64,000 bases of DNA from Rhizomicrobium sp. (lineage in GTDB: Bacteria; Pseudomonadota; Alphaproteobacteria; Micropepsales; Micropepsaceae), in the NCBI GenBank assembly GCA_037200385.1, contig JBBCGL010000001.1:2805418-2869417 (forward strand). The letters are read 5' to 3'. The notes beneath the pieces were generated by a model. It was not told the DNA's origin and did not search any database. It saw only the letters and a program-made list of their open reading frames with translations. Position 1 is the stretch's first letter. Each line of letters begins with the position of its first letter. The position numbers and the translations under genes are program-made. Below are positions 36,286 through 55,799 of the stretch, piece after piece.

Positions 36286-36299
36286 TGATACTAAACTCA
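36286..36299. promoter_or_regulatory. Putative operator, TGAT-N6-CTCA
   Basis: Imperfect inverted repeat in the divergent region between the exported hydrolase and the serine hydrolase. Read on the minus strand it is GTGAG-N6-ATCA, whose left half equals that of the perfect palindrome at 39696. A member of the TGA-N8-TCA set in this region; it would overlap the 5' leader of the hydrolase gene. Confidence 0.4.
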
Positions 36300-36425
36300 C
36301 TTTCATAAGTGTGGGAGACCACGGGGCTCTTTGTCAATGCGGTGCCAACTACGCCGAGCCGCCACGCAGGTAGAACAATACCTATCCGACGGCCCGGCTC
36401 ATACCGACGCAATATGCCAGAAACA

Positions 36426-36439
36426 TGATTGTTATGTCA
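36426..36439. promoter_or_regulatory. Putative operator, TGAT-N6-GTCA
   Basis: Same half-sites as at 39718 and 45804. The following bases (GTCAG then T5 GGG) match those after the 45804 site with one extra base there. The distance from its end to the start codon at 36501 is 61 nt, exactly as for the 45804 site and its gene. Confidence 0.5.
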
Positions 36440-36500
36440 GTTTTTGGGTGGTACGAACGTCTTCTGTCCCAGACGCCGCCTTTTGAGCAAAGGATCCATC

Positions 36501-37931
36501 ATGAATTTCCGCCTTTTGCGGTTGTCCGCCCTGCTGGTGACGGTGCTTGCTGTCGGTGCGGCCGGCGCCGCTCCTTTGAAGAACAAGCAGAAAGGCGATG
36601 ACGCATCGCTGGGGGCCATCGACGCGATCGTTGCCGATGCGCTGGTCCAGGGGCCTTATCCCGGCGTCGAGATCGCCATCGAGCGGCATGGCAAAATCAT
36701 TGCCGATAAGGGCTACGGTTTCGCCGATCTCGAGCGTAACGTGCCGGTGCGTGCCGACACGATCTTCCAGATCGGATCGATCACAAAGTCCTTCACCGCC
36801 CTTGCCATCATGCAGCTGGTAGATGCCGGCAAGCTCTCACTGGATGCGAAGATCGGCGATGTCCTGCCTGCTCTGCCGCAGCCGGCGCACGACCTGAAAA
36901 TCCGAAATCTGCTCAACCATACGTCCGGGCTTCAGAACTATACGGAGCTGAAGGATTTCCCGCTGCACTCGCAGGACCCCACGACGCGGGACAAGATGGT
37001 CGCCGCCTTCGCGACGAAGGACCTTCTGTTTCCGCCCGGGACGGGCTGGAGCTATTCCAATTCCGGCCTCTACCTGCTTGGCCTGGTGATCGAGAAGGTC
37101 TCCGGCGTCGACTACCCGACATATCTGCGGACGCATGTCTTCGAGCCGTTCGGCATGACCTCGACGTCCATTCCGGACTGGCAGACCGTGCTGAAGCGCC
37201 GCGCGGCCGGGTACAGCTTCGACGGCAAGGTGTTCCAGAACGCGCAACGTTATGATTGGGTCGTTCCCTTCTCGGCGGGCGCCATCGCCTCGACCGCGGG
37301 CGATCTAATCAGATATCGCCACGGTGTCTTCGCCTCGGCCGCAACGTCACAGCACGTTCGCGACCTGATCCTCACGCTCGACCCCTTGGCTGACGGCACC
37401 CCGCTGCCCTACGCGCTGGGCTGTCTGGTGCTGGGCGACTTCGAGGGACATCGGAAGATTTCGCACTCCGGCGACATCTTCGGCTTCGCCGCGCACTATG
37501 CGTATTATCCCAAGGACGATCTCACCATCGTTGTGCTGACCAATCACCAAGGCGCAAGCTTTCCACCGTCGACCATCGAACGAAAGATTGCCCGTGTGAT
37601 GCTCGGCATCCCGGCGCGCAGGTCGGCCGACTTGCCGCTGACGGCGGACGAAGCAAAGGCCTTCGAAGGCGATTACGCGCTGGCTCTGCATTTCGGCGCC
37701 GCCAAGCTGGGCTTTGCCTATGCCGACGGCAAGCTGGCAGTGACTCTAGGTGGGCTTGGTGGCGGCGGACCGACCATTCCGCTGCGCTATCAGGGCAATG
37801 GTGTGTTCCTGTCGCCCCAAAATAGCGAAGACAGCTTCGTCTTCGCACGTCGCGCGGACGGCAAATCCGGCGTGGTCATGACTTACTACGACGCCGAAAA
37901 TCCGGGCGTAAAGCTGGACAGCAGCAACTGA
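36501..37931 (+). CDS. Exported serine hydrolase, class C beta-lactamase/DD-peptidase fold
   Basis: A protein of 476 residues with signal peptide (MNFRLLRLSALLVTVLAVGA, cleavage after about residue 24). The active-site S-x-x-K is in GSITKSFTAL, the Y-x-N in WSYSNSGLY, and the third box is HSGDIFG. A C-terminal lipocalin-like domain (about 380-476) is present. Members hydrolyse D-Ala amides, esters, aminoacyl amides or linear peptides; MlrB of microcystin breakdown belongs to this family, but at about 12% longer. Start ATG 36501 follows AAAGGA at 7 nt. Monocistronic, ended by a hairpin at 37940. Confidence 0.92.
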   Translation: MNFRLLRLSALLVTVLAVGAAGAAPLKNKQKGDDASLGAIDAIVADALVQGPYPGVEIAIERHGKIIADKGYGFADLERNVPVRADTIFQIGSITKSFTALAIMQLVDAGKLSLDAKIGDVLPALPQPAHDLKIRNLLNHTSGLQNYTELKDFPLHSQDPTTRDKMVAAFATKDLLFPPGTGWSYSNSGLYLLGLVIEKVSGVDYPTYLRTHVFEPFGMTSTSIPDWQTVLKRRAAGYSFDGKVFQNAQRYDWVVPFSAGAIASTAGDLIRYRHGVFASAATSQHVRDLILTLDPLADGTPLPYALGCLVLGDFEGHRKISHSGDIFGFAAHYAYYPKDDLTIVVLTNHQGASFPPSTIERKIARVMLGIPARRSADLPLTADEAKAFEGDYALALHFGAAKLGFAYADGKLAVTLGGLGGGGPTIPLRYQGNGVFLSPQNSEDSFVFARRADGKSGVVMTYYDAENPGVKLDSSN

Positions 37932-37939
37932 AGAGGAAA

Positions 37940-37955
37940 GCCCGCGCGAGCGGGC
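37940..37955. terminator. Intrinsic terminator between convergent genes
   Basis: Stem GCCCGC-GCGA-GCGGGC directly after the serine hydrolase stop, with A-rich sequence to the left and ATCTTCT to the right, so it could end transcription from both sides. Confidence 0.6.
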
Positions 37956-37960
37956 ATCTT

Positions 37961-38785
37961 CTATCCCAGCGTCGGCGCCAGCGTCGTGAGGAATTGCATG
38001 ATGCGGTTGAGGGTGACCGCATCCTTCGCATCGAAGCGCACACCGCAAGCGCCGACACGCACAAACCCCGGCAGATAGCAAAAGAGCTCGGCAGCCAGCG
38101 GTGCCTTAAACGTCACTTCCGCGTGAAAGGGTGGTTCCGGCGAAAAAGGTTTGGTGTCCGTCGACCGGCGCAGGGCGGCACCTGCCGCGGCCCGCAGCTC
38201 GCGTTCGACGAGCATGGGCGTTTTCGAGTGCACCGAAAAATATCCGGTCGAGCGCTTGGTCACCACGGATTCGAGGCCGCCGAGCAACCGAGCGGTCTCG
38301 GCGATGAAGACGTCGTCACCGCTCATCAAGGTGATGGGCACACCAAACTGACCGGCGACGGCAGCGCTGAGACCGGCTTCAGACAGATCTAGGCCGTTAA
38401 TCTTGAGCGCGTGCAGCCCCCGACTCGACAATGTATGCGCCAGCGTACCGCCGGGCGACGCAGCTCCTGCGTGATAGCCGAGAAGGAAGGCGCAGGCAAA
38501 GGTGCCGCTTTCGATGCCCTGCATCATGCCGAGCGGGCGCGGCCAGCTGCGCACCAGTTCCGTGTCCTCCGCAAAGCGCTCCGGGATGAGGTTGAGGCCG
38601 CTGCCATGCGAGTCGCTGACGACAAAACCCGTCGCCCCATTCGCGCGAGCGCCTGCGATCGCGGCCAGCACCTCGCCCGTCATGCGCTCGCGGGCCCTGT
38701 GGAAATCAAAGCCCACAGTGCCGGTCTCCTCACGCGAGGTCACCGCTGCAATGCCCTCGATGTCGGCGGAAATGTAGACCCTCAC
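37961..38785 (-). CDS. M55-family D-aminopeptidase (DppA-like)
   Basis: A protein of 274 residues, the size of Bacillus DppA, which removes N-terminal D-amino acids from D-Ala-type peptides. The zinc ligands of the family can be seen: Asp and Glu in YISADIEGI, His in VSDSHGSGLNL, His in LLGYHAGAAS and Glu in LDLSEAGLSAA; the catalytic His is in GTLAHTLSS. Start chosen at GTG 38785, which overlaps the stop of the PhyH gene as GTGA and gives the usual M-R-V-Y-I-S-A-D-I-E-G; ATG 38803 is an alternative. Second gene of a coupled pair with the dioxygenase. Confidence 0.9.
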   Translation of the reverse strand: MRVYISADIEGIAAVTSREETGTVGFDFHRARERMTGEVLAAIAGARANGATGFVVSDSHGSGLNLIPERFAEDTELVRSWPRPLGMMQGIESGTFACAFLLGYHAGAASPGGTLAHTLSSRGLHALKINGLDLSEAGLSAAVAGQFGVPITLMSGDDVFIAETARLLGGLESVVTKRSTGYFSVHSKTPMLVERELRAAAGAALRRSTDTKPFSPEPPFHAEVTFKAPLAAELFCYLPGFVRVGACGVRFDAKDAVTLNRIMQFLTTLAPTLG

Positions 38786-39591
38786 GCGTCTGGACTCGAC
38801 CATATTGGTGGAAACGATTCGCAATCCATGCGATCGCCGTGTTTCAGACCGGGGTCCGTCGTCGGAATGGCGGTCTCACCTTCCCGAATGCAATAGCGCG
38901 CATCGTCGCCGGTCCAGCGCGTTGCCAATGCGCGCCGCCGGCGTCCGAGACTGGAATTGCCGCGTGCGCCGTGAACGATCATCGCCTGGAATACAAGACA
39001 ATCACCCGGCTCCATGTCCCAGGAGAGAATACGGTGCTTGTCTCGCTCGGCATCGATGTCCGGCAGCTTCGGCAGATCGCGACCTTCGTAGGGAGACCCG
39101 TCCTTGAAGTGCTGAGGGATGTATTCCCGCCCCCAACGATGGCTGCCGGCGATATACTCGACGCTGGTTTCGCGATCGACGACATCGAGAGGCAGCCAGA
39201 TCGAACACACTTGCCGGCCCGAGACAGCCCAATAGGGTTGATCCTGGTGCCAAGGCGTCTTGTCGCCAGTGCCGGGTTCCTTGACCAGCAACTGGTCGTA
39301 GAAGAAATTCACCCGCTTCGCGCGCATGATGAGGCCCGTGATTTCAGCGGCGGGACTTTCGAACACGAAGCGGCGAAACGGCTCATGGCGCCGCCAGATG
39401 TCCAGATCGCCGAAGAAACGGCCTGGCGCCCCGGGCGCGGTATACTCGCCCGCATGCGGCCCCGGCTCGGCCATCGCAACTTCGGTCGCCTCGCGGAGCG
39501 TCTCGATCCAGTGCGCGGCAAAGGCATTGCGCAGGCAGACCACGCCATCGGTTTCATAGGCCGTGCGCGCGGCATCGTCGATAACGTTCAT
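38782..39591 (-). CDS. Phytanoyl-CoA dioxygenase (PhyH) family Fe(II)/2-oxoglutarate oxygenase
   Basis: A protein of 269 residues. The iron-binding motif is in TPWHQDQPYW (H-x-D), and the distal His is in MIVHGARGNSS. KRVNFFYDQLLVKEPGTGDK is typical of the family. Such enzymes hydroxylate unactivated carbons, including fatty acyl-CoA, amino acids and peptide side chains. ATG 39591 follows GGAGG at 5 nt. The stop overlaps the D-aminopeptidase start by 4 nt, so both are probably made together. The intergenic region towards the TetR gene carries two putative operators. Confidence 0.9.
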   Translation of the reverse strand: MNVIDDAARTAYETDGVVCLRNAFAAHWIETLREATEVAMAEPGPHAGEYTAPGAPGRFFGDLDIWRRHEPFRRFVFESPAAEITGLIMRAKRVNFFYDQLLVKEPGTGDKTPWHQDQPYWAVSGRQVCSIWLPLDVVDRETSVEYIAGSHRWGREYIPQHFKDGSPYEGRDLPKLPDIDAERDKHRILSWDMEPGDCLVFQAMIVHGARGNSSLGRRRRALATRWTGDDARYCIREGETAIPTTDPGLKHGDRMDCESFPPIWSSPDA

Positions 39592-39695
39592 ATGGCCTCC
39601 GGAATTCAGTTTTCCCAGATTGCTTTGCACGCCACAGGACCTCCCGCCGCGGCCGGGAATTTTCATATGTGCGTTCAAAGTGTTGAACAACGAAA

Positions 39696-39711
39696 GTGAG
39701 GCTAGCCTCAC
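39696..39711. promoter_or_regulatory. Perfect 16-bp palindrome GTGAGGCTAGCCTCAC, putative TetR operator
   Basis: Fully symmetric; half-sites TGAG-N6-CTCA equal those at 49243 and 55778. It lies in the divergent promoter region between the PhyH/D-aminopeptidase pair and the TetR gene at 39829. A smaller inverted repeat TTCAA-N4-TTGAA (39674-39687) lies next to it. Confidence 0.65.
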
Positions 39712-39717
39712 AATAGA

Positions 39718-39731
39718 TGATTGTGACGTCA
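39718..39731. promoter_or_regulatory. Putative operator, TGAT-N6-GTCA
   Basis: Begins 6 bp after the palindrome at 39696. It contains the 8-bp palindrome TGACGTCA and has the same half-sites as those at 36426 and 45804. Two sites side by side suggest cooperative binding of a TetR dimer pair. Confidence 0.45.
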
Positions 39732-39828
39732 TATTCTTTTCTGTCAAGCCAAGTGCTATGAACAGCGACTCGAACACGGCGCGGATCGCGTCATCCGCAT
39801 CTCCCGTTTCTGCAGGTGATCGCCCACT

Positions 39829-40623
39829 ATGACGGATAGAAAACCGCGCCCAGCCACCCTCGCCGTGCAAGGTGCCGGCATGAGGGCCGATGCATTCAAA
39901 TTCAGCGACGTCGAAGCGCGGCGTCAGCGCGAACTGCCAAACCGCCGTAAGGGAGAGCGCACGCGTGACGCCTTGAAACTCGCGGCGATCGAAGTCCTGG
40001 GCGATACCGGCTATCACGACATGCGTCTCAGTGACATCTGCGAACGGGCGCAGGTCTCTCCGGCAACTTTCTACATCTACTTCGAGAACAAGACGGTGAT
40101 CACCGTGGAGGTGCTTACCGAGTTTCTCGACGCGTTATACGACATGGAGCAGCTACCCGGCACGGTGAACACCGCGTTCGGCGTGATCTGCAGTGCCAAC
40201 CGGCGTTGGCTGCGGGCCGCGCGCGCCAATTCCGGTCTGTTCCGCTGTGTCTACCAGCTCGGCGACGAAATTCCCGAATTCAACCAACTCATGCAGCGCG
40301 CCAATTTCCGGTGGTACAAGCGGGTGGCCGCGAGTGTCGCCAAACGCTTTCCTGGCGCGGATCCGGGCGAGTCCGTCGTCCTGCTGGCGGCCTACGGCCT
40401 CGGCGCCATCCTCGACGAGATCGCGCGCAAGCTCGTCGTCTATCCCGATCCGCACTTCCTCGCCGCTCTGGAAGACGAGAGGTTGAGCGACGACGACTTG
40501 GCCGAGTTCATCTCGGTGCTCTGGTATCGCGCGATCTATGGCGCCAACCCACCGGACGCGCTCAAATCCCCGACCGCGCAGAAACTGAGGAAGATCGTCC
40601 TCCAGCCCGGCACGGCGCGATAG
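39829..40623 (+). CDS. TetR-family regulator (paralogue of the one at 48456)
   Basis: A protein of 264 residues. About 40 N-terminal residues precede the HTH domain (KGERTRDALKLAAIEVLG; RLSDICERAQVSPATFYIYF). The ligand-binding part shares many blocks with the TetR protein at 48456-49226, among them NRRW, RAN-GL-RC, QLGDE, QR-N--WY and RKLVVYPDP. An ATG at 39880 is a possible shorter start. It is divergent from the PhyH/D-aminopeptidase genes over two operator-like sites and convergent with the TRAP genes (6-nt gap). A local repressor of the catabolic region is the likely role. Confidence 0.9.
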   Translation: MTDRKPRPATLAVQGAGMRADAFKFSDVEARRQRELPNRRKGERTRDALKLAAIEVLGDTGYHDMRLSDICERAQVSPATFYIYFENKTVITVEVLTEFLDALYDMEQLPGTVNTAFGVICSANRRWLRAARANSGLFRCVYQLGDEIPEFNQLMQRANFRWYKRVAASVAKRFPGADPGESVVLLAAYGLGAILDEIARKLVVYPDPHFLAALEDERLSDDDLAEFISVLWYRAIYGANPPDALKSPTAQKLRKIVLQPGTAR

Positions 40624-40629
40624 GGCCGC

Positions 40630-41121
40630 TCAGACAGGCTGTTCCTCGCAAAAGGGCTGGACGAGCTTCGCCACGGCATGGAACGCGATGATCGCCGCCA
40701 TCAGCGGCACGATCGACTCGACCAGCGCCAGCGGCAGCCGCGTCGATTCGGTCACGCGGATGGACGCGCGCTCCAGGAAATCCGGGCCGAAATAGATGAA
40801 CGGAGCGACGAAGATCAACACCGCGGCCATCCGCACCGGCAGAAGCCGCCGCCCGGTACGCGAAGGGCCCACCCAGGATACGAGAACCGGATCGGCGCCA
40901 CGCCGGAAGGAAACCGTCGCGCCCAACAGCGCGCTCCACACCATCGCATAGCGCGCGATCTCCTCTGTCCATTGCGGCGGCGCGGAAAAGCCGTAGCGTG
41001 CCACGACCTGGATCGCGACCATCACGATCATCACGAGCATGAAGACGCAAGCCGCCAGGAGACAGAGACGATCGATAGCATGGCTCAACCGCACGGTCAG
41101 CCTGCAAAAGGCACGCAGCAT
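40630..41121 (-). CDS. TRAP transporter small membrane subunit (DctQ type)
   Basis: A protein of 163 residues with four predicted membrane helices, the second half of the first being LLAACVFMLVMIVMVAIQVV, followed by the typical RYGFSAPPQWTEEIARYAM. It joins the large permease to form the translocation channel. Its ATG shares one nucleotide with the stop of the binding-protein gene (TGATG). Last gene of the TBDR-DctM-DctP-DctQ series. Confidence 0.9.
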   Translation of the reverse strand: MLRAFCRLTVRLSHAIDRLCLLAACVFMLVMIVMVAIQVVARYGFSAPPQWTEEIARYAMVWSALLGATVSFRRGADPVLVSWVGPSRTGRRLLPVRMAAVLIFVAPFIYFGPDFLERASIRVTESTRLPLALVESIVPLMAAIIAFHAVAKLVQPFCEEQPV

Positions 41122-42101
41122 CACGGCTTCCGCCCTTTCATCATATCCGTGACCACGGAGGTCGCCGCTTTGGACGTGACCAACTGAGCATAAATCGCGG
41201 CCGAGCGCGCGACAAAGGCGGCGCGCGCCTGCGGCGTCGGTTCGGCGATCGTGACGCCATGCGCTCGCAGGATGTCGAACTCTTTCTTCTGGATCGCCGC
41301 TGTCCAGCGCCGGTTGGCGGCTCGCGCTTGTGCGGCGGCGACATCGACAATGCGTCGGGTGGGCGGCGCCAGGCCGTCATACCAGCGCTGCGAAAAGGTG
41401 ATGGTCCGGACCGACGGCTGGATGCGCAAGTTGAGAAAGTAGTGGATGTTCGAAGTATGCCCGAAGATCACCGGCACAAGCGGCGCATTCATGTAGCCTT
41501 CGGCGATGCCGGTTCCCAGCGCTTGCGGGACCTCTTCCCATGCGACCTGAACTCCGTGAACGCCCCATGCGCTCAGCAAGGTCAGGTCGCGATGATCCAT
41601 GGCACGCAGGCGCAATCGGCTCACCTCATCCATCGTGCGCACCGGTCTGCGCGTGTTGAACACGCCGCTCATACCGCCGAGAAAGGCGACGTCAACGACA
41701 CGCACGCCGCGAGGCTCCGCCTCCGCATTGATACGCGCCAGAAAGCGGCCGGCGTGCAGCAGCTTGTCGAGCTCCGCGTCGTCGCGAAATAGAAACGGCA
41801 GGGAAAGGCCGTCGTACGGCGGACTTACCGCCGCGACCTCATTGCCCCCTGTGTCATTCACCGCCAGCAGACCGAGCCGGACGAGTTCGATCCTTTCGTC
41901 TTCGCCGCCCAACGCACTGTTGGGATAGAAAACCACTGCCTGGCCATGCTTCTCGAGCACGTCGGCGAACGCCTTCAACCAGACATAGACACCGGAGCGC
42001 TGCGGATCCGCGCTACTCGACATCCCGATGCGGATGGGATCGGCAAGGGCCGCTCCCGTCCAGGCGAAAAGTGCGGACAAAATCAGGGGGGCGAGACGCA
42101 T
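41121..42101 (-). CDS. TRAP transporter periplasmic solute-binding protein (DctP type)
   Basis: A protein of 326 residues with signal peptide (MRLAPLILSALFAWTGAALA). The family features are ANSALGGEDE-like segment FYPNSALGGEDERIELVRLG, the LRLRAMDHRDLT region that normally holds the substrate-binding Arg, and YHFLNLR-like IHYFLNLRIQPS. It binds an organic acid in the periplasm; the ligand cannot be told from sequence. Start ATG 42101 lies 2 nt after the DctM stop and follows GGAGGTGGATAGGG. Confidence 0.9.
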   Translation of the reverse strand: MRLAPLILSALFAWTGAALADPIRIGMSSSADPQRSGVYVWLKAFADVLEKHGQAVVFYPNSALGGEDERIELVRLGLLAVNDTGGNEVAAVSPPYDGLSLPFLFRDDAELDKLLHAGRFLARINAEAEPRGVRVVDVAFLGGMSGVFNTRRPVRTMDEVSRLRLRAMDHRDLTLLSAWGVHGVQVAWEEVPQALGTGIAEGYMNAPLVPVIFGHTSNIHYFLNLRIQPSVRTITFSQRWYDGLAPPTRRIVDVAAAQARAANRRWTAAIQKKEFDILRAHGVTIAEPTPQARAAFVARSAAIYAQLVTSKAATSVVTDMMKGRKP

Positions 42102-42103
42102 CC

Positions 42104-43399
42104 CTATCCACCTCCATGCAGCAGGCCGAAATGGCGCGGGATGAGGAGGCTTATCTCCGGAACAAATACCACGAGCAGGAGCGCAGCGATTTCGATGACG
42201 AGGAACGGCAGCGTGGCGCGCACCAGCCGCCAATAGGGAATGCCGGCCGTCGTCGCAGTGACGATCAGGACGCCGCCCGCCGGCGGCGCCAGCAAGCCGA
42301 TGGACAGATTGAGGCAGATCGCCACCCCGATATGGACGGGGTTGGCGCCCTGGGCGATGGCGACGGGGACGACGATCGGGGCAATCAGGGCGAGACCGAT
42401 CTGAGTATCGAGAAAGACGCCGACGATCAGGAACAGCACCGTCAGAGCGGCCATATAGCCCCAAAGCCCCAGGCCAAGATCGATCGCGAGATGGGAAATC
42501 GCCGCCGGCAGCCCAGTCAGGGTCGCAACGAAGCCTATGCCTGACGCGGCAATGATGATGGCGAAGATCGAACCGGAAAGAATGGTTGCGCGAACGATGC
42601 TCTCGCCGACGCTGGAGACATCCAGCGTGCGATAGAAATAGCCCACCGCTACGGCTGCGGCGACGGCAATGCCGGCCGCCTCCGTAGGCGTCATCCAGCC
42701 GAACACGATTCCACCGACGATTACCACGGGCAGCGACAGCGCCGGCAGGGCGCGCCACAGTGCGGGCCAGAAGGGAACCCGATCCTCGCTGAGCCCGCCG
42801 GGATGGCCGTACCGCCTTGCGAAGTACCAGTTCGCGAGCATCAGCATGACGGCGAGCAGCGCACCGGGTCCAACGCCCGCGGCCAGAAGCGCGGCAACGT
42901 CGACATTCATGATCGCGCCGTAGAACACGAGGATGATACTGGGCGGGATGATCGGGCCCAGGATTGCCGACGCGGCGGTGATCGCGCCCGCATAGGTGTC
43001 CTTATAACCGCGCTCCCGCATGGCGGGAACGAGAGTGCTCGACAGCGCTGCGGCGTCCGCCATCGCCGCACCCGAAATTCCGGCGAAGAACAGCCCCGCC
43101 AGCACGTTGACATAGCCTAGCGCGCCCCTGCGCCGTCCTACCAGTGCGACGGCGAGGTCGACCAAAGCCCGGGTGATGCCGCCGCGATTCATCAGCTCTC
43201 CGACAAGAACGAAGAGCGGGATCGCCATGAAGGCGAAGACATCCACGCTGGAGAAAATGCGTTGCGGCAGCGCGGCGAGGAATGCACCGTTGCCGCTCGC
43301 GACGTAGGCAAGGACCGCACCGGCACCCATCACATAGGCAAGACCGGCGCCCGCCGCGAGGAGGAGCACGAACAGAAGCGCCGCAATCACGCCCAACAA
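42104..43399 (-). CDS. TRAP transporter large permease (DctM type)
   Basis: A protein of 431 residues with about 12 hydrophobic helices; AIPLFVLVGELMNRGGI, GAITAASAILGPIIPPSIIL and FLDTQIGLALIAPIVVPVA are family signatures. It drives sodium-coupled uptake. The start is a TTG at 43399: AAAGGAG lies 8 nt upstream and no ATG or GTG is near. It follows the TBDR gene with a 44-nt gap, in the same direction. Confidence 0.92.
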   Translation of the reverse strand: MLGVIAALLFVLLLAAGAGLAYVMGAGAVLAYVASGNGAFLAALPQRIFSSVDVFAFMAIPLFVLVGELMNRGGITRALVDLAVALVGRRRGALGYVNVLAGLFFAGISGAAMADAAALSSTLVPAMRERGYKDTYAGAITAASAILGPIIPPSIILVFYGAIMNVDVAALLAAGVGPGALLAVMLMLANWYFARRYGHPGGLSEDRVPFWPALWRALPALSLPVVIVGGIVFGWMTPTEAAGIAVAAAVAVGYFYRTLDVSSVGESIVRATILSGSIFAIIIAASGIGFVATLTGLPAAISHLAIDLGLGLWGYMAALTVLFLIVGVFLDTQIGLALIAPIVVPVAIAQGANPVHIGVAICLNLSIGLLAPPAGGVLIVTATTAGIPYWRLVRATLPFLVIEIAALLLVVFVPEISLLIPRHFGLLHGGG

Positions 43400-45609: not shown

Positions 45610-45665
45610 GCCCAGCCCCTTTTTCGCCGATGTCCCTGCGACAAAAACCGTAACAGAAATAAGTA

Positions 45666-45679
45666 TGACATCAATATCA
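45666..45679. promoter_or_regulatory. Putative operator, TGAC-N6-ATCA (TGAT-N6-GTCA on the other strand)
   Basis: Located in the divergent region between TBDR 1 and the M81 peptidase gene, nearer the TBDR. Half-sites on the minus strand are identical to those at 36426, 39718 and 45804. Confidence 0.45.
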
Positions 45680-45744
45680 GTTTCTGCTATTTCGGATCAT
45701 GGAAATCCGCGCTTTCCGGGCGCGGCGTGACATAATTGCAAGTT

Positions 45745-45763: not shown

Positions 45764-45803
45764 CGGTGCACTCCACTTCGCATGCGGCGCGGCTGCGCCA
45801 ATA

Positions 45804-45817
45804 TGATGGATGCGTCA
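45804..45817. promoter_or_regulatory. Putative operator, TGAT-N6-GTCA, facing the M81 gene
   Basis: Followed by AG then T5 GGG, much like the site at 36426. The end of the site is 61 nt from the start codon at 45879, the same as for the serine hydrolase gene. Confidence 0.5.
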
Positions 45818-45878
45818 GATTTTTGGGCAACGGCGACGCCGTTCGCCGGTTTTCGATGCAGTGATCGAGGGGAACGGC

Positions 45879-47336: not shown

Positions 47337-47343
47337 GCGCGAT

Positions 47344-48455: not shown

Positions 48456-49226
48456 CTACACCCACATGATCTTGGCGAGCTTGGCGGCCGTGGGAGGCAA
48501 GTCGTCCGGCGGCATCATGCCTGCATCGAGAATCCGGAGCCAAATGATGCTCGCCGCGTCGGCAACGGCATCGTCATTCGCTCGCATCGATTTGATGACT
48601 TTGATGAACTCCGGATCGGGATAGACGACCAGCTTGCGGACGACCTCGTCCATCATCGCACCCAGGAAGTAGATCGCCAGCAGTGCCGTTTCTTGCGCGA
48701 GATCCTTGTGGCGACGCAGGACGCTGCGCGACACACGGCCGTACCATTCGCGATTGGTGCGCTGCACCAACCTGCTGAAATCGGGCTCCTCATCGCCGAG
48801 CTGGAAAATGCAGCGCATCAAGCCGGCGTTCGCGCGGCAGAGCGCGATCCAGCGGCGGTTGGAAGCCCGGATCGAATCGAACGGTGATCGCGCGGTCTCC
48901 GGTGGCGCGCTCAACTTGAAAAAATCCTCGAGCAAGGCGCTCAACACCGTGAGGGATATCTCCTTCTTGTCGTCGAAATAGACATAGAAAGAGCCTTCCG
49001 CCACGCCGGCCCTCTCCGTGACGTCGGACACACGCATCGCGTGATAGCCCTTCTCGCCAAGTACGTTCGCCGCGGCTATCTTGAGGCGCGCACGCGTGCG
49101 CTCTCCCTTCAATTTGGGTGCGTCGTCGCGCAAGCGGTTTTCCAGGTATGCGGCGAAGGACAGCGTTTCCCGCATCGTGCCTGCTGGTGTATTCGTCGAC
49201 GAAAGAGTTGCGAGTTGACGTGCCAT
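48456..49226 (-). CDS. TetR-family regulator (paralogue of the one at 39829)
   Basis: A protein of 256 residues. HTH region KGERTRARLKIAAANVLGE and MRVSDVTERAGVAEGSFYVY; ligand domain with NRRW, CRANAGLMRCIFQLGDEEP, WYGRVSRSV and VRKLVVYPDPEF, shared with the TetR protein at 39829. ATG 49175 (MRETLSFAAYL) is an alternative start. It is divergent from the MaoC/MFS/CoA-ligase operon; the operator-like palindrome at 49243 lies 17 nt before its start, consistent with self-repression. Confidence 0.9.
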   Translation of the reverse strand: MARQLATLSSTNTPAGTMRETLSFAAYLENRLRDDAPKLKGERTRARLKIAAANVLGEKGYHAMRVSDVTERAGVAEGSFYVYFDDKKEISLTVLSALLEDFFKLSAPPETARSPFDSIRASNRRWIALCRANAGLMRCIFQLGDEEPDFSRLVQRTNREWYGRVSRSVLRRHKDLAQETALLAIYFLGAMMDEVVRKLVVYPDPEFIKVIKSMRANDDAVADAASIIWLRILDAGMMPPDDLPPTAAKLAKIMWV

Positions 49227-49242
49227 CCAAAGAGCCTATAAA

Positions 49243-49260
49243 ATTGAGGTCACTCTCAAT
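49243..49260. promoter_or_regulatory. Putative TetR operator ATTGAG-N6-CTCAAT
   Basis: Perfect 6-bp inverted repeat with 6-bp spacer, in the 69-nt region between the TetR gene and the MaoC gene. Extends to the same ATTGAG/CTCAAT arms as at 55778. Confidence 0.7.
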
Positions 49261-49295: not shown

Positions 49296-49784
49296 ATGAG
49301 CGCCGACATTATAGGTACCGTCCAGGCGCTCAAGCCCGGTGAGGACCTCGGCGCATCGCCTTGGCTGACCGTTACCCAGGCGATGATCGATCAATTCGGA
49401 GCGGCCACGCTCGACCCGGATCCCATGCATATCGATCCCGATTGGGCAACGAAGAATGGATCGTTCGGCGGCACCATCGCGTTCGGCTTCCAGACGATCT
49501 CGCTGCTGACCTACTTCCTGCACAAGGTACTGGAAACCCAGCCGGGTCGCGATCCCGCGGTTCATGGTCACTACCTGAACTATGGTTTCGACAAGGTCCG
49601 CCTCGTCTCGCCCGTAAAAGTCGGCGCCCGGATCCGCGGCCATTTTCGAGTCGGGGAAAGACGCCAGGACGATCATGGCCGATGGATCAACACCATGGAA
49701 AGCACCATCGAGATCGAAAATGCAGACCGCCCCGCTCTCGTGGGGCAATGGCTCAGCGTTTGGGTCCCGCCCGACGCCAGCTGA
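49296..49784 (+). CDS. MaoC-like hotdog dehydratase
   Basis: A protein of 162 residues. The (R)-hydratase motif is visible: catalytic Asp and His in AATLDPDPMHIDPDWA and the glycine-rich GGTIAFGFQTISLL. It would hydrate or dehydrate an enoyl-CoA/3-hydroxyacyl-CoA. Its stop shares one base with the ATG of the MFS gene (TGATG). First gene of a four-gene operon with MFS, acyl-CoA ligase and enoyl-CoA hydratase. Confidence 0.9.
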   Translation: MSADIIGTVQALKPGEDLGASPWLTVTQAMIDQFGAATLDPDPMHIDPDWATKNGSFGGTIAFGFQTISLLTYFLHKVLETQPGRDPAVHGHYLNYGFDKVRLVSPVKVGARIRGHFRVGERRQDDHGRWINTMESTIEIENADRPALVGQWLSVWVPPDAS

Positions 49785-51106
49785 TGGATGCGCAGATGAA
49801 AAATCCGGCACAGCCGCCGAGCGGTGGGGGTATCGCCGCATATGCGGCGGGCTCATTTGGCACTGGCGTGTTTTCGACCGTGCCCTCCGTTCTGCTGCTC
49901 TATTTCTGCACCGAGGTGCTGCATATCTCCGCCGCGTGGGCGGCGATGGCGGTATTCGCTCCGAAGGCTTGGGGAGTCGTCTGGGATCCTCTGGTGGGAA
50001 TATGGTCGGACCGGACGCACACCCGGTTCGGTCGCCGACGTCCGTTCTTGCTTGCCGGCGCGATCGGCGTTGCGATTTCATTTGTCGCGGTTTTCACGCC
50101 ACCGCCACTCAGTCCTGGCGCGACCTTTGCGTGGGTGGCAATCGCCTATTTCGCGCTTGCCACTCTCTATTCCCTGTTCGCAGTTCCTTATGTCGCTCTG
50201 CCGGCGCAGATCGGCACGACACAGGGGCTGCGAGCCCAATTGGTGTCCTGGCGCATGACGGTCGCCATGATCGGCGTCCTCGCGGGCGCCGGAATCGCGC
50301 CGCTGATCGTCGAAGCCGGTGGCGGTGGTCGTGCCGGCTATGCCGTCATGTCCGAATGGGTTGCAATCGCCTGCCTCATCGCGATGACCGCGCCGATCGT
50401 CATGCTGCGCGGCCGCGACATCTCATCGTCCTCTACGGAGGCGAGAGAGCCCGGCCTTCTGCGCCAGGTTGGTGAAGCGCTCCGCCATCGCGAATTCGTC
50501 GTGCTTACGCTCGCTTACGTCTTGCAGTTGACGGCAGTTGGAATCGTGTCGGCGTCCGCGCCGTATCTTGTGACCCATGCTTTTGGCCGCAGCGAGGGCG
50601 ATATCGGAATCGCCTTGCTGGTCATGCTCCTGGCAACGACCGTAACGGTGCCGGCCTGGGCATGGGCGGGCCGCCGGTTCGGCGAGCGCCAAGCCCTGAT
50701 CGGAGCCGTCATCGCATTCGGCGTCGCCAGTTGCCTGTTGGGCCTGCTTGCGCGCGTCGATATCGCTTGGCCGTTGGCGCTGGTGGGCTTCGTCGCCGTC
50801 GGCATCCCGTTCGCCGGAATGCAGGTCCTGCCCTTCACCATCATCGCGCACCTGATCCACGAAGAAGGGCGGCGCGGCTCGCCCGCAGAAGGATCCTTCA
50901 CCGGCGTATGGACCGCCTCGGAGAAACTCGGACTTGCGATCGGCCCGGCGCTCACCGGTGTCGCGCTGGCCGTCGCGCATGGCGATATTCCACGCGGCCT
51001 GACGCTGTTCGTCATGGGCGGACCGCTCGTGCTGGCCCTTCTATCCCTGCCGCTGTTGCGCACGCGGCCGGTGCCTTTGGTCTCCACTTCAGAGTTTCAG
51101 CCATGA
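49784..51106 (+). CDS. MFS transporter of the GPH/MelB (MFS_2) type
   Basis: A protein of 440 residues with about 12 membrane helices. The loop WDPLVGIWSDRTHTRFGRRR (after helix 2) is the signature of glycoside-pentoside-hexuronide:cation symporters, a group that in proteobacteria also includes carriers of non-sugar compounds. Its stop and the next start overlap as ATGA (51103-51106). In an operon of CoA enzymes it most likely imports the acid that the ligase activates. Confidence 0.9.
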   Translation: MDAQMKNPAQPPSGGGIAAYAAGSFGTGVFSTVPSVLLLYFCTEVLHISAAWAAMAVFAPKAWGVVWDPLVGIWSDRTHTRFGRRRPFLLAGAIGVAISFVAVFTPPPLSPGATFAWVAIAYFALATLYSLFAVPYVALPAQIGTTQGLRAQLVSWRMTVAMIGVLAGAGIAPLIVEAGGGGRAGYAVMSEWVAIACLIAMTAPIVMLRGRDISSSSTEAREPGLLRQVGEALRHREFVVLTLAYVLQLTAVGIVSASAPYLVTHAFGRSEGDIGIALLVMLLATTVTVPAWAWAGRRFGERQALIGAVIAFGVASCLLGLLARVDIAWPLALVGFVAVGIPFAGMQVLPFTIIAHLIHEEGRRGSPAEGSFTGVWTASEKLGLAIGPALTGVALAVAHGDIPRGLTLFVMGGPLVLALLSLPLLRTRPVPLVSTSEFQP

Positions 51107-52677
51107 TCCGCCCGCCCGTCCTGCCGCGCATCAGCGATTATGCCGCCTGGCAAGCCCGTCACCAGCCTGATGCGGACGCACTGGTGCTCGGCGCGCGGCG
51201 CATCACCTATGCGGAACTCGACATCGCTGTCGATCGGACGGCCCGTGCGCTCCTCGCAGCCGGCGTCAAGAAAGGCGACCGAGTCGCGACGTTGCAGAAT
51301 CCGACGCCCGAATTCTTCATCGCATTTCTCGCGACTGCCTCCATCGGCGCCATATGGGTGGGATTGAATCCGAAATATCGCGTCGAAGAGTTGCTGCACG
51401 TCGTCAAAGATGCGGAGCCGGTCGTGCTTTTGACGCGCACGCAAATCGAAGGTCGCTCCTATGCGGACGAGATCGCGGCATTCAGAAGCGCCGTGCCAAT
51501 GATGGATCGTGTCGTCGTGTTCGACGGCAATCCCATGATCGCGGCCGCTCAGGCCATGGAAGAGTTCCTGCGGGAAGGCGATGGCATCGCCGGCGCGGAG
51601 CTGTCGGCGGCGCGGGAGGCGTGTGGCGGCCGTGATCCGTGCCTCATCGTCTACACGTCCGGCTCGACGGGAAAGCCCAAGGGCGCGTTGCTGCATCACG
51701 AAGGAATCGTCGAATTCAGCCTGGAGCAAAACCGCCTTTGGCCGGTCGATCCCCAGTCGATGATCAACTATTTCCCGATCAACCACATCGGCTGCGTCAT
51801 CGATTGCTCCAGCCCCTGCTTCGTCGGCGGCGGCAAGCTCGTCTTCCTGGAGCATTTCAGCCCGTCCGAATGCCTCGCCCTGATGGCAGAGGAGCGCATC
51901 ACGATCTGGGGTTCGGTGCCGACGGTGTTCCGGATGCAGCTCACGCTTCCAGACTTCGCGAGATACGATCTCGGCGCCGTTCAGCTCATCCTGTGGGAGG
52001 GGGCTGCGATGCCCAGCGAACTGTTGGAGCGGCTCATAGAGATCTGCCCCCGCATGGCCACGAATTACGGCATGACGGAGACGACAAGCGCGATCACGAT
52101 CGTCGAGCCGACCAGCGACTTCGACATACTGGCCGGTTCCGTGGGAGTCGCGTTTCCCGGCGTCGAGATACGGCTCGCGGACGGCGAAGACAGGGCGGTT
52201 TCCGACGGCACGGAAGGCGAAGTTCAGACGCGCTCGCGCTACAATCTGCTCGGCTATTGGCGGCGGCCCGACGCCACGAAAGATGCCTTCACAGCGGATG
52301 GCTTCTTCAAGACCGGAGATCTCGCGGTGCGGCGGCCCGACGGCCGCTACCGCATCGTTGGGCGTCTCAAGGAGATGTTCAAATCCGGCGGTTATAACGT
52401 CTATCCACGTGAAGTCGAAGCGGCGCTCGAAGCGCATCCGGCCGTCGGTCAGGCGGCGGTCGTGAGCATCGCCGATCCCCTTTGGGACGAGGTCGGGGTG
52501 GCCTATGTCGTGCCACGCGAAGCCGTGAGCGCGGCCGCGCTGGAATCCCATTGCCGGGCGCATCTGGCGAATTACAAGGTGCCGAAGCGCTTCGTGATCA
52601 CCGGCGAATTGCCGTTGCTTCCCATAGGAAAAGTCGATCGCCGCGCTCTCAAGACGCTGGCGGAAGGGAATAACTGA
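51103..52677 (+). CDS. Acyl-CoA synthetase (AMP-forming ligase)
   Basis: A protein of 524 residues of the ANL superfamily, activating a carboxylic acid with ATP and CoA. The P-loop-like motif IVYTSGSTGKPKGALLHH, the NYGMTETTSA motif, FKTGDLAVRR and the C-terminal catalytic Lys in LPIGKVDRRAL are all intact. Its substrate is not predictable. Start ATG 51103 overlaps the MFS stop by 4 nt; the frame is open earlier, but that part lies inside the MFS gene. Confidence 0.93.
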   Translation: MIRPPVLPRISDYAAWQARHQPDADALVLGARRITYAELDIAVDRTARALLAAGVKKGDRVATLQNPTPEFFIAFLATASIGAIWVGLNPKYRVEELLHVVKDAEPVVLLTRTQIEGRSYADEIAAFRSAVPMMDRVVVFDGNPMIAAAQAMEEFLREGDGIAGAELSAAREACGGRDPCLIVYTSGSTGKPKGALLHHEGIVEFSLEQNRLWPVDPQSMINYFPINHIGCVIDCSSPCFVGGGKLVFLEHFSPSECLALMAEERITIWGSVPTVFRMQLTLPDFARYDLGAVQLILWEGAAMPSELLERLIEICPRMATNYGMTETTSAITIVEPTSDFDILAGSVGVAFPGVEIRLADGEDRAVSDGTEGEVQTRSRYNLLGYWRRPDATKDAFTADGFFKTGDLAVRRPDGRYRIVGRLKEMFKSGGYNVYPREVEAALEAHPAVGQAAVVSIADPLWDEVGVAYVVPREAVSAAALESHCRAHLANYKVPKRFVITGELPLLPIGKVDRRALKTLAEGNN

Positions 52678-52678
52678 G

Positions 52679-53434
52679 ATGGATCGCGTCCTGTACGCCG
52701 TGAAGGACGGCATAGCGACCGTTACGCTCAACCGGCCGTCGCGACTTAATGCAATCGATACAGGCCTGCTCGAGGGATTGAATGCGGCGCTGGCGCATGC
52801 GGCCGAGGCGCCCGATGTCGACGTCATCTTGCTCGAAGGCAGCGGCCGGGCGTTCTGTGCGGGCGACGACCTCGAAGAGTTTGAGACCCTTCCCATCAAT
52901 CGACAGATCATCGAACGCTTCAACGAACGCCTGCAGCTGGTTACGCGACAGCTCATGCTGGGGCCCAAACCCGTGGTGTGTGCGGCCCAGGGCTGGATCG
53001 TGGGCGGCGGCGCGGCCTGGCCGCTCAATGCCGACTTCTGTGTCGCAGCGGACGATGCGACACTGTTCTGCCCTGAAGCGGGATTTGGCCTGTTTCCCTC
53101 CGGTGGCGTGACGATCCTGATGGCCGAAAGATGCGGACCGGCGCTTGCCAATGAAATCCTCTGGCTGAAGAAGAAACTGAACGCCGCGGAGTTGCTGGCG
53201 GCGCGGCTGGTATCGCGCGTGGTGCCTCGCGCCGAGATGGCGGAAGAAGCGCTCGCGCTGGCGCAGGCGATTCGCGCGCTGCCCGAAGGCTCGCGCCGGC
53301 GCTTCAAGGAGGCCAGGGCCAACGACATCCGCGCGCGGCTGGAGCGAGCGCTCGATTTCGAGGCCGCGTGCTGCGTGGAATCGGCGCTCGATGCTTCGGT
53401 GCGCGACAGGACCAGCGCGGCGTTGCGGTCCTAG
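52679..53434 (+). CDS. Enoyl-CoA hydratase/isomerase family protein
   Basis: A protein of 251 residues with crotonase fold. The oxyanion hole is formed by AFCAGDDLEEF and GWIVGGGAAWPLNADF. One catalytic Glu is present (CPEAGFGLFPSGG), but the other, normally in GGG-x-E, is replaced by Ala (GGGAAW). This makes a standard hydratase reaction doubtful; isomerase, hydrolase or another crotonase reaction is possible. Starts 1 nt after the ligase stop; last gene of the operon, followed by a hairpin at 53479. Confidence 0.88.
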   Translation: MDRVLYAVKDGIATVTLNRPSRLNAIDTGLLEGLNAALAHAAEAPDVDVILLEGSGRAFCAGDDLEEFETLPINRQIIERFNERLQLVTRQLMLGPKPVVCAAQGWIVGGGAAWPLNADFCVAADDATLFCPEAGFGLFPSGGVTILMAERCGPALANEILWLKKKLNAAELLAARLVSRVVPRAEMAEEALALAQAIRALPEGSRRRFKEARANDIRARLERALDFEAACCVESALDASVRDRTSAALRS

Positions 53435-53516: not shown

Positions 53517-53559
53517 CAGAAGTGCTTGACTGCACTTGAGCGCATCGGAGCGGTTCACC

Positions 53560-55755
53560 TCAATTATCGATCTTCAGTTCGACACCGACGGTGCGCGGAT
53601 TTCCCAGAACGATGAATTTCTGCCCGACGAGGGTCTGGCCTGAGAGATCGAACAGACGTTCCTCATAGATCGTGTTCGTGAGGTTCTTGCCCCAGAGACT
53701 GAGGCGCCAATTCCCCTCATCCGGTGTCAGCGACATGCGCATGTTCAACAGACCATACGGATGCACGTGCCCATCTTCCTGATTGTCCGCGGTAAGATAG
53801 CTGTCGCCCCGGAAGAGATACTCGCCGAACAGCGACAAACTGCCGAAGCCATAGACCGGCAGCGTATATTCGGCGTTGAGCGCGGCGGTGTAATTCGGTG
53901 CATAGGGGATATGGTTCAGCGGCTGGCCGGTCGGCAACGTGCCGCCGTCGTAGCGCGCGTCCTGAACGGATAGATTGCCGCCGACCAACAGCGCTTCGGT
54001 CGGGCGAGCGGTAAACTCGAGCTCGACGCCCGTGGAGTGCGCGGAACCGCCGTTGAAAATGATGGGATCGAACACCGGCGTAAGTGGATTGTCCATGGTC
54101 ACCTGGATCTTCGTCCAGTCCATGTAGTAAACCGCAGCATCCAAGACGAGGCGATGATCGAACCACTCCGTCTTGAGGCCGCCTTCATAGTTCCACAGCG
54201 ACTCCGGCCCGAACGAAATGCCGTTGGCATCGCCCAGCGCGTCGTTATAGCCGCCGCTCTTGAAGCCCTTCGACACCGTCACATAGCCCATCACGTCCGG
54301 GGTGATGTGGTAGCTGGCGTTGAAATTCGGCGTGAAGCTTGGCCAGGAATCGTGCGCCTTGAGATGGCTGACGGAGCCGCCCAAGAGTCCGACGGGGTCG
54401 AACTGCGAATAGTCGATCTCCTTGCGATCTTCGGTGTAGCGCGCGCCGGCGGTGAATGTGAGTGCGTCGGTGGCATGCCAAGTCGCACTCCCGAAGACCG
54501 CCGTGCTGGAGGTATGCATCACCGCGTTGGAACCGATCAGCAGGCCGGTGAGGGTCGGGTCGCCCAATACATCGGCAAGGTCCGAGCCGATTTCGTCGAA
54601 GCTCTGGTTGTTGGTGTATTGCCGGAAATAATAGACGCCGGCGAGCCAATCGACCGGCCCGGTGGAGAAATCCGCGCGCAATTCGTTTGCGTAGCGCCAG
54701 ACTTTTTCCGGATCGCCGTCATAGGCCATTTTCAGCGGCGAACGATCGGTGTCGTCGCGGTCGTAATAGCCATGCCGATGGTAGGAGGCGATGTCGGTGA
54801 TGCCAACGCCGCCAAGCCGGGTGGTGAACCGTGCCGCGAGATCGTAGCCGTTGAGCTTTTCCTGCGTGATCGTATCGGAATAGACCACACGGTCGTAGGG
54901 GTCGAGATTGCGCGGCAATCCAGCGCCGTCGAGCAGATTCGGTAACAGCGCCGTGTTGTCGTATGCCTTGGTCTCGAATACCAACGGGTGTTGGTCGACA
55001 TGCTGGTAAGCGCCCGTCAAAAGCAATTCGGTGGCGTCGTCGAATTTGAAGAGCAACTGGCCGCGCGACGACCAGGCATTGTGATCGTTGACGTGATTTC
55101 CCAGCACGGCGTTATAGTCGAAGCCGCCACGCTTGTCCCAGACCGTGGACAGCTTGGCGTCGAGAAAGCCGGGCAGGATCGGACCTGACACCGTGCCGCC
55201 GAGCCGCACGGCGTCGTAGCTGCCATAACCGGCCGTACCTGAAAACGTGAAATCGTCGCTCGGCTTCTGGGTCGTGATGCTGATGACGCCGCCGATGGTA
55301 TTGCGGCCGAACAGCGTGCCCTGCGGGCCGCGCAGAACTTCGACTCGTTCGATATCATAGAGATCGGTGTTTACGCCCGCGCCCTGGCCTTCATAGATCT
55401 CGTCCACGTAAAAGCCCACGGCAGGATCGGCGCCGGCCGAGCCGGCATTTCCGATGATGCCGCGCAAGGAGGTCGGAGACAGCTTCACGTCGCCGTAGTC
55501 GCCGTATTGCAGGCCGGGCGTCGTCCTCGCGATGTCGGAGAAATTGTTGATCCCCGCACGTGTCATGGCATCGGCGGTAAAGGCCGTGACCGAGATCGGC
55601 GTGTCTTGGATGTTCTCGGCGCGCTTTTCGGACGTGACGACGATGGTCTCCACGACGGCCACTCCGGCTGGATCCGGCGCTTGCTGTGCTGCCGCCAGGC
55701 CCAGCGAGCCCAGCAATCCGGCGCTCGCCATCGAACCGCGCAAAATCCGACGCAT
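53560..55755 (-). CDS. TonB-dependent receptor (TBDR 2)
   Basis: 731 residues with signal peptide, plug start VETIVVTSEKRAENIQDTP, VEVLRGPQGTLFGRNTIGG and a full barrel. The protein ends in RTVGVELKIDN, so the usual aromatic last residue is missing. ATG 55755 follows AGAGGGGGGAA. A near-perfect operator palindrome lies 22 nt before the start. It is divergent from the ornithine-cyclodeaminase-family gene. The ligand is unknown. Confidence 0.94.
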   Translation of the reverse strand: MRRILRGSMASAGLLGSLGLAAAQQAPDPAGVAVVETIVVTSEKRAENIQDTPISVTAFTADAMTRAGINNFSDIARTTPGLQYGDYGDVKLSPTSLRGIIGNAGSAGADPAVGFYVDEIYEGQGAGVNTDLYDIERVEVLRGPQGTLFGRNTIGGVISITTQKPSDDFTFSGTAGYGSYDAVRLGGTVSGPILPGFLDAKLSTVWDKRGGFDYNAVLGNHVNDHNAWSSRGQLLFKFDDATELLLTGAYQHVDQHPLVFETKAYDNTALLPNLLDGAGLPRNLDPYDRVVYSDTITQEKLNGYDLAARFTTRLGGVGITDIASYHRHGYYDRDDTDRSPLKMAYDGDPEKVWRYANELRADFSTGPVDWLAGVYYFRQYTNNQSFDEIGSDLADVLGDPTLTGLLIGSNAVMHTSSTAVFGSATWHATDALTFTAGARYTEDRKEIDYSQFDPVGLLGGSVSHLKAHDSWPSFTPNFNASYHITPDVMGYVTVSKGFKSGGYNDALGDANGISFGPESLWNYEGGLKTEWFDHRLVLDAAVYYMDWTKIQVTMDNPLTPVFDPIIFNGGSAHSTGVELEFTARPTEALLVGGNLSVQDARYDGGTLPTGQPLNHIPYAPNYTAALNAEYTLPVYGFGSLSLFGEYLFRGDSYLTADNQEDGHVHPYGLLNMRMSLTPDEGNWRLSLWGKNLTNTIYEERLFDLSGQTLVGQKFIVLGNPRTVGVELKIDN

Positions 55756-55777
55756 GATACTTCCCCCCTCTTGAGAA

Positions 55778-55799
55778 ATATTGAGTATGAGCTCAATAT
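55778..55799. promoter_or_regulatory. Putative TetR operator ATATTGAG-N6-CTCAATAT
   Basis: Perfect 8-bp inverted repeat with 6-bp spacer, the strongest member of the TGA-N8-TCA set in this window, between TBDR 2 and the divergent ornithine-cyclodeaminase-family gene. Confidence 0.75.

Follow-up and report, generated by a model that had tools for sequence, protein, structure and literature searches.

Gene content of the cluster

The DNA analysed here is a 64,000-bp stretch of Rhizomicrobium sp. (assembly GCA_037200385.1, contig JBBCGL010000001.1, positions 2,805,418 to 2,869,417), hereafter the window. Between about 34.3 and 57.8 kb it contains a cluster of peptidase, transporter and coenzyme A (CoA)-dependent genes whose divergent promoters carry the dyad TGA-N8-TCA, together with two paralogous genes for TetR-type regulators, TetR A and TetR B. 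With a probability of about 0.87, we propose that these genes form a one-cluster regulon under a repressor of its own TetR subfamily, a proposal based on sequence comparison. The genes, with TBDR denoting a TonB-dependent receptor, are as follows.

34399..36270, minus strand: S15/CocE hydrolase (PF02129, PF08530); start near 36270
36501..37931, plus strand: beta-lactamase-fold serine hydrolase (PF00144); start near 36501
37961..38824, minus strand: M55 D-aminopeptidase, downstream of PhyH (PF04951)
38782..39666, minus strand: PhyH dioxygenase (PF05721); start near 39666
39829..40623, plus strand: TetR A (PF00440); recognition helix PATFYIYF
40630..43399, minus strand: TRAP transporter DctQ, DctP and DctM, downstream of TBDR1 (PF04290, PF03480, PF06808)
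43444..45609, minus strand: TBDR1, TonB-dependent receptor (PF00593, PF07715)
45879..48450, plus strand: M81/MlrC-like peptidase, then flavin adenine dinucleotide-dependent DAO oxidoreductase (PF07364, PF07171, PF01266); start near 45879
48456..49226, minus strand: TetR B (PF00440); recognition helix EGSFYVYF
49296..53434, plus strand: MaoC, MFS_2 transporter, AMP-dependent CoA ligase and enoyl-CoA hydratase (PF01575, PF13347, PF00501, PF00378); CoA ligase at about 51106-52677
53560..55755, minus strand: TBDR2, TonB-dependent receptor (PF00593, PF07715)
55864..56835, plus strand: ornithine cyclodeaminase/mu-crystallin family enzyme (PF02423); start near 55864

Gene starts were picked from start codons and their context, that of PhyH by eye. 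Beyond the cyclodeaminase-family gene lie two pyridoxal phosphate (PLP)-type enzymes, a third TonB receptor, a further regulator (TetR C) and an MFS transporter.

TGA-N8-TCA sites in the promoter gaps

An earlier inspection of the DNA (the sequence-only reading) had listed eight TGA-N8-TCA sites and three long-arm palindromes. All eight sites are present, 0-4 bp from where they had been placed, the offsets being due to the longer arms; their cores start at 36286, 36426, 39697, 39718, 45666, 45804, 49245 and 55782, and a ninth, overlapping core starts at 55788. The three palindromes are each exact: GTGAGGCTAGCCTCAC at 39696-39711, ATTGAGGTCACTCTCAAT at 49243-49260 and ATATTGAGTATGAGCTCAATAT at 55778-55799.

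Across the whole window the bare six-base pattern was mildly enriched (18 occurrences versus 10.95 expected; at least 18 in 4 of 100 shuffles). Between 34.3 and 57.8 kb, nine of 13 occurrences fall in the 1,055 bp of intergenic DNA that make up 4.5% of these 23,486 bp (binomial P ~4.5e-10), and the seven gaps longer than 30 bp hold nine sites, where 2,000 Markov simulations gave 0.265 on average and never more than three. The remaining four (38305, 38368, 51633 and 54174) are coding; the restriction to promoters that had been claimed is not absolute for the six-base pattern, although it is strong for the full operator described below. When the spacing was varied (TGA-Nk-TCA, k from 0 to 16), the cluster gaps contained only k = 8 (nine), k = 2 (four), k = 14 (two) and k = 15 (one).

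Three simpler motif definitions were rejected. Bare TGA-N8-TCA was too loose, given its count in the window, and was replaced by the double operator. TTGAG-N6-CTCAA as a separate motif has four exact places in the genome, and the two outside the window lie inside mechanically called open reading frames (ORFs). GTGAG-N6-CTCAC as a separate motif has two exact places, the second at 4664176.

A motif learned from other genomes

A motif was learned from foreign DNA alone. Palindromic expectation maximisation was applied to regions of 480 bp spanning the 5' end of the tetR match at 27 loci with a match of at least 70 bits, none of them from this genome, using 60 restarts for the real data and 25 for the Markov controls. 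It returned AATGAAAnTGACGTCAnTTTCATT with a log-likelihood of 246, compared with 48.5-52.5 in five Markov controls. In the same 27 regions, TGA-Nk-TCA peaked at k = 8 (32) and k = 2 (14), every other k of 0-20 occurring at most seven times. A site scoring at least 13.5 was present upstream of tetR in 20 of these loci, which are the training set itself.

In the window, the six best matches to the matrix of width W = 24 started at 49237, 45658, 36284, 39716, 45664 and 55780, which represent five places with scores of 13.8-23.1. All are intergenic and all belong to the sites of the sequence-only reading, 45658 and 45664 being two registers. By comparison, the best coding match scored 5.8, the maximum of a 2-Mb simulated null was 13.1, and 399,540 other positions of the same genome peaked at 13.0; the site at 55780 (13.8) clears the null maximum narrowly. 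With the W = 20 matrix the margin was smaller: apart from two misfits treated below, the listed sites scored 11.4-19.2, the best coding match 10.1 and the best control 14.4. The sequence-only reading had asked whether a matrix would match coding and intergenic DNA alike; with the matrix built from foreign loci, the top matches in the window were all intergenic.

A further model, R1, was built from 22 foreign sites in both orientations and used to score 150 of 574 first-look candidates in the genome. Among the candidates scored, three places in the 5.0-Mb genome reached E <= 10, all in the cluster, and 45658..45687 was the best of them. In genome G276, all four places at E <= 10 lay within that genome's own tetR cluster; these four had belonged to the training set.

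Architecture of the proposed full operator

The candidate full operator is a 20-bp sequence, TGA-N3-TGA-N2-TCA-N3-TCA, in which two TGA-N8-TCA dyads overlap with an offset of 6 bp. The spacings k = 2, 8 and 14 are explained by this arrangement, because two dyads at a 6-bp offset produce exactly these. The core recognised by the sequence-only reading is real, but the operator is longer than had been thought. With at most one mismatch, the 20-mer occurs at six places in the 5.0-Mb genome, five of them in the five divergent promoters of the cluster and the sixth at 2454882, outside it; a reversed control pattern gave no place in the same search. The only occurrence in the genome with no mismatch is 55780..55803. 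The sites of the cluster (all unstranded) are as follows.

36284..36307: double operator with one mismatch, located in the promoter of S15/CocE and ending 14 bp before its start; W = 24 score 20.1; R1 9.5 bits in the window
36424..36447: weak site of one unit, on the side of the gap that holds the promoter for the beta-lactamase-fold hydrolase; W = 20 score 13.3, W = 24 score 5.3
39696..39711: GTGAG-N6-CTCAC palindrome ~30 bp upstream of PhyH; W = 24 score 4.2, W = 20 score -8.8; operator status unsupported
39716..39739: double operator with one mismatch, in the PhyH/TetR A gap; W = 24 score 17.0; R1 11.2 bits in the window
45658..45687: double operator with one mismatch, readable in two overlapping registers, at a distance of 49 bp on the upstream side of TBDR1; W = 24 scores 21.6 and 16.2
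45802..45820: weak single-unit site on the M81 side; W = 20 score -3.1; the motif gives no support
49237..49260: double operator with one mismatch, in the TetR B/MaoC gap; W = 24 score 23.1; second R1 place in the genome
55780..55803: double operator without mismatch, in the gap that separates TBDR2 from the cyclodeaminase-family gene; W = 24 score 13.8, W = 20 score 11.4; third R1 place

Every divergent gap of the cluster, five in all from the S15/CocE gene (36.3 kb) to the cyclodeaminase-family gene (55.8 kb), has a full operator; its distance from the nearer start codon, on the upstream side, is 11-50 bp, and from the start codon of the other gene of the pair 36-194 bp. The other six gaps tested between 43 and 62 kb contained no TGA-N8-TCA, and the regulon appears confined to this cluster. 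Promoter-like matches overlap two of the full operators (49215-49244 and 39747-39720).

The eight sites had first been treated as one motif. The five full operators fit it, whereas 39696 and 45804 do not and 36426 fits weakly, its W = 20 score being exceeded once in the 400-kb control (14.4). There is about an even chance that the weak sites at 36426, 39697 and 45804 are chance matches or parts of promoters and not operators. Their motif scores are low, 36426 coincides in part with a minus-strand CTGACA that resembles a -35 element, and 39697 can form an RNA hairpin; against this, at least three extra TGA-N8-TCA in the gaps have a Poisson P of ~0.0025 at a mean of 0.265, in a test devised after the fact. 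Paired single units occur elsewhere: in a Sulfitobacter locus (L135, 11886-11927), two TGAC-N6-GTCA units lie 18 bp apart before tetR, and the second runs on as GTCAGTTTTTGG, like the window site at 36426 and nearly like that at 45804.

Sites of the same spacing also occur elsewhere in this genome. At locus L177 (18943-19686, ~C1:3768942-3769685), TTGACATAAGTGTCAG and TTGACATTAGTGTCAG stand at the two ends of a mechanical ORF of 230 aa, with another mechanical ORF of 206 aa on the opposite strand. From their sequence, they resemble operators that share the N8 spacing but belong to a further repressor.

Related loci in other species

Across 96 genomes of the same family and order, this one included, only TetR B and TetR A reached E <= 1e-15. 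Among full-length matches to the 16S gene of this genome on plasmid-borne records, Methylosinus ranked first (88.2%) and the eight top rows were Methylosinus and Ensifer, with ten records of 90-99% identity outside these rows; the result fits an alphaproteobacterium. TetR relatives were found by a genome-collection scan, in plasmids, and in 10 of 384 other genomes of the class (E <= 1e-30); the scan that yielded most loci keyed on the FY-YF residues after the helix Gly and not on the Gly.

A TonB receptor, a TRAP transporter, an M81 peptidase and a TetR occur together in Alphaproteobacteria bacterium NORP106 (L053), Emcibacter (L054) and a third locus, L149. The receptors of L053 and L149 are 41% and 48% identical to TBDR1; that of L054 (26%) is not clearly TBDR1-like. 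L149, whose TetR is 49.2% identical to TetR B, additionally has an enolase-superfamily enzyme, a DUF1611 protein and an S58 peptidase. A plasmid of Novosphingobium THN1 (L133) carries a TetR (39.8% identical to TetR B), a CoA ligase, MaoC, S15, MFS_2 and TBDR2.

The sites recur at corresponding genes of these loci. They precede the TBDR1-like receptors in L053 and L149, a TonB receptor in L054 and, in L053 and L054, the enoyl-CoA hydratase; all three loci have one at the M81 start. On the THN1 plasmid, the site lies between the CoA ligase and MaoC, in the gap orthologous to that of 49237-49260. Moreover, several TetRs outside the training set have an operator upstream, namely those of the Burkholderiales locus L073, the Rhizobiales locus L067 and the Myxococcota loci L068 and L070 (scores 19.4-31.3), and the L067 operator has one mismatch to the 20-mer. 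Lower upstream scores were obtained for L071 (13.0) and L072 (7.8). The computation shows the motif, its restriction to the cluster and, in other species, its occurrence together with this TetR subfamily. The regulon first suspected from the TGA-N8-TCA promoters is supported by the foreign-matrix scan and by the sites at related tetR genes.

Several points weigh against the one-cluster regulon. As for the training data, the 27 loci are not all independent, several being close Rhodobacterales relatives, and seven of them lack a site of at least 13.5 upstream of tetR; one is the THN1 plasmid, whose best site is in the CoA ligase/MaoC gap instead. Among 64 non-training loci with more distant TetRs, 12 reach 13.5, and seven of these 12 are in DNA of at most 40% G+C, where chance matches come easier. 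In the cluster, the W = 20 scores of 55782 (11.4) and 36426 (13.3) are below the maximum of the 400-kb control (14.4), and 39697 (-8.8) and 45804 (-3.1) do not fit the motif. The R1 E-values in the genome are weak (0.97-3.8), and the R1 genome search did not return 36285 (9.5 bits) and 39717 (11.2 bits), which were scored in the window. The 20-mer pattern was settled after foreign and window sites had been viewed together; because the window sites were in view, the foreign-only matrix is the cleaner test. Finally, the centres of the long palindromes at 49243 and 55778 are displaced by 3 bp from the dyad of the family-level motif, and promoter-like matches are no commoner in the region than in shuffles (4 versus 4.3).

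Two paralogous TetR proteins

Both proteins match Pfam TetR_N (TetR A 41.7 bits, TetR B 47.5 bits; cut-off 24) and are 45% identical, with a conserved helix-turn-helix (HTH) core; the similarity of TetR C to TetR B is mostly in the HTH. The recognition-helix pattern G-(S/T)-F-Y-x-Y is found in TetR B and in all 37 readable relatives from the 40 best listed. L054, L057 and L157 did not match the pattern, although L054 still shows the Gly. TetR A has Ala in place of this Gly, and so does TetR C. In Sulfolobus FadR, as reported in PMC6449355, Gly48 contacts a guanine, the exchange G48A abolishes binding, and Gly48, Tyr51 and Tyr53 have the same G-x-x-Y-x-Y spacing; the helices of TetR B and Sulfolobus FadR were matched by residue pattern and not by superposition. 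Because TetR B (48456-49226) retains the helix Gly whose counterpart in Sulfolobus FadR is needed for binding, it is the likelier main repressor, with TetR A as a diverged paralogue. TetR A may still bind DNA, since TetR C has Ala as well. Each tetR has a candidate operator at its own promoter, 49237-49260 for TetR B and 39716-39739 for TetR A. The link of the sites to the TetR genes, as first drawn, holds in that like sites occur upstream of related tetR genes in other species, but the two TetRs are probably not equivalent.

In the predicted fold of TetR B (mean pLDDT 80), which is all-helical and matches solved TetR proteins, 128 PDB matches reached E <= 0.001. Bacillus halodurans FadR (5gp9) ranked first, followed by BkaR, EthR, Bacillus subtilis FadR and FasR; the B. 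subtilis FadR and FasR entries hold acyl-CoA, judging from their titles.

It is conceivable, though rather doubtful, that the same operators are bound equally well by each paralogue, or by heterodimers of the two, so that control would be redundant or would answer to two signals. Their 45% identity, the conserved HTH core and the full operator in each tetR promoter region agree with this. Set against it are the Ala of TetR A, where TetR B and the readable relatives have Gly, and the loss of binding on the equivalent change in archaeal FadR (PMC6449355); yet TetR C also has Ala, so the change is not fatal generally. Furthermore, the fetched stretches of L149 and L053 show one such TetR each.

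A different division, in which TetR A reads GTGAG-N6-CTCAC at 39696 and TetR B the full operators, is unlikely. In the PhyH/TetR A gap, the site at 39696-39711 forms a perfect palindrome with only two exact places in the genome, and the recognition helix of TetR A is changed, but this palindrome is the single example in the cluster, misfits the family motif (W = 20 score -8.8) and, as RNA, would form a terminator-like hairpin in the PhyH leader. By its sequence, the palindrome could equally be an RNA hairpin as an operator. On the minus strand, the predicted hairpin is followed by T-rich sequence in the PhyH leader, a possible attenuator.

That a different regulator binds the sites, such as the third TetR (61485) or an unlinked factor, is very improbable: although another TetR lies nearby and binding by TetR B or A is only predicted, the motif was recovered from regions that share this TetR subfamily while their neighbours differ (ABC, TRAP or TonB transport), and both gaps around TetR C are without TGA-N8-TCA.

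TetR C (61485-62192) and the third TonB receptor (59110-61428) lie just outside the regulon. No TGA-N8-TCA was found in the gaps on both sides of TetR C, including the TetR C/MFS divergent gap, and for this reason TetR C and the receptor are probably under separate control. Closer in, the cyclodeaminase-family and PLP genes (55828-57785) are similar to the beta-hydroxyaspartate-cycle proteins BhcD and BhcB (284 and 434 bits, below the cut-offs of 500 and 550).

Proposed regulation

In the regulon that we propose, one repressor dimer would read one TGA-N8-TCA unit, and two dimers could bind the overlapping units, offset by 6 bp, of a full operator. When the substrate is absent, the repressor would shut down uptake (the TonB receptors, TRAP and MFS transporters) together with catabolism (peptidases, oxidase, CoA ligase and hydratases), and would also limit its own synthesis. 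Repression would occur by promoter blocking, which the placement of the operators fits. Release would be brought about by an intermediate, most likely an acyl-CoA formed by the cluster's own CoA ligase. An acyl-CoA ligand is our best guess for TetR B because the CoA ligase, MaoC and hydratase lie in the regulon and its predicted fold is FadR-like; TetR B probably acts in the manner of the acyl-CoA-sensing FadR. The M81, M55, S15 and beta-lactamase-fold hydrolases together with the DAO oxidoreductase suggest peptides with unusual residues as the substrate. We infer direct binding, occupancy by two dimers, the acyl-CoA ligand and the respective roles of the two paralogues with less certainty than the regulon itself.

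Comparison with known systems

A local, autoregulated TetR repressor is a known kind of system, and the regulation proposed here is solid but fairly ordinary. The closest parallel is FadR of S. acidocaldarius. It is likewise a local TetR repressor of one catabolic cluster (30 kb there) with few genomic sites, including its own promoter, and it shares the semi-palindromic sites, the Gly/Tyr helix pattern, a G and C 11 bp apart, and acyl-CoA enzymes as targets. A G-C pair 11 positions from the palindrome C-G places the second dimer of Sulfolobus FadR (PMC6449355), and one or two dimers bind depending on the operator; in TGA-N8-TCA, the G and C are also 11 bp apart. Unlike the system described here, the S. 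acidocaldarius FadR is archaeal, controls a lipase and beta-oxidation cluster, has a 16-bp motif and is shown to be released by acyl-CoA; here, peptide and TonB-type uptake genes are combined with acyl-CoA enzymes, and there are two paralogous TetRs.

Bacillus FadR resembles TetR B in structure, B. halodurans FadR (5gp9) being the top match of the predicted fold. In sequence, the phmmer match to 3whb (34.5 bits) covers HTH residues 49-103 only, and the similarity does not extend beyond the HTH. The Bacillus FadR box is TGA-N1-TGA-N4-TCA-N1-TCA, two overlapping TGA-N8-TCA units with a 4-bp offset. In comparison with this box, the operator here (TGA-N3-TGA-N2-TCA-N3-TCA) differs in its 6-bp offset. 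QacR controls a drug efflux gene. Its operator comprises two overlapping inverted repeats (PMC6449355), an arrangement that the spacings k = 2, 8 and 14 reproduce here, a single k = 15 being the only other spacing. Searches of the open-licence literature for the operator motif, for TetR regulons linked to TonB or TRAP transport in Alphaproteobacteria, for the FadR box and for a TetR with TGACGTCA gave no match; subscription papers lay outside this coverage, and the motif may be in print.

The M81 protein matches the MlrC structure 7ylq (406 bits), but its NCBIfam MlrC score of 430 bits is below the cut-off of 999. A link to microcystin was rejected and is kept as a lead only: the M81 protein falls well short of the MlrC cut-off, M81 genes number six in this genome, and none is present on the THN1 plasmid; mlrA and mlrD were not searched for. 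The six M81/MlrC-type genes seem to be a large set; 14 control genomes had none.

Implications

Extended to the whole TetR subfamily of Pseudomonadota and Myxococcota, the findings would point to one conserved operator code of TGA-N8-TCA units, single or in overlapping pairs. In this genome the repressor would have been duplicated and one copy would have lost its guanine-reading Gly; operators of one or two units and two unequal repressors would then grade the expression of a cluster dedicated to unusual peptides that contain D- or beta-amino acids. We put this extension forward tentatively, with the odds against it.

An operator sequence for the TetR subfamily would allow target prediction in many genomes. 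In Rhizomicrobium sp., it groups 20 kb of peptide, transporter and acyl-CoA genes into a single functional unit and narrows the search for its substrate. Additionally, the natural Gly/Ala paralogue pair, which differs at a known DNA-contact position, may serve as a ready test of how recognition diverges among TetR proteins.

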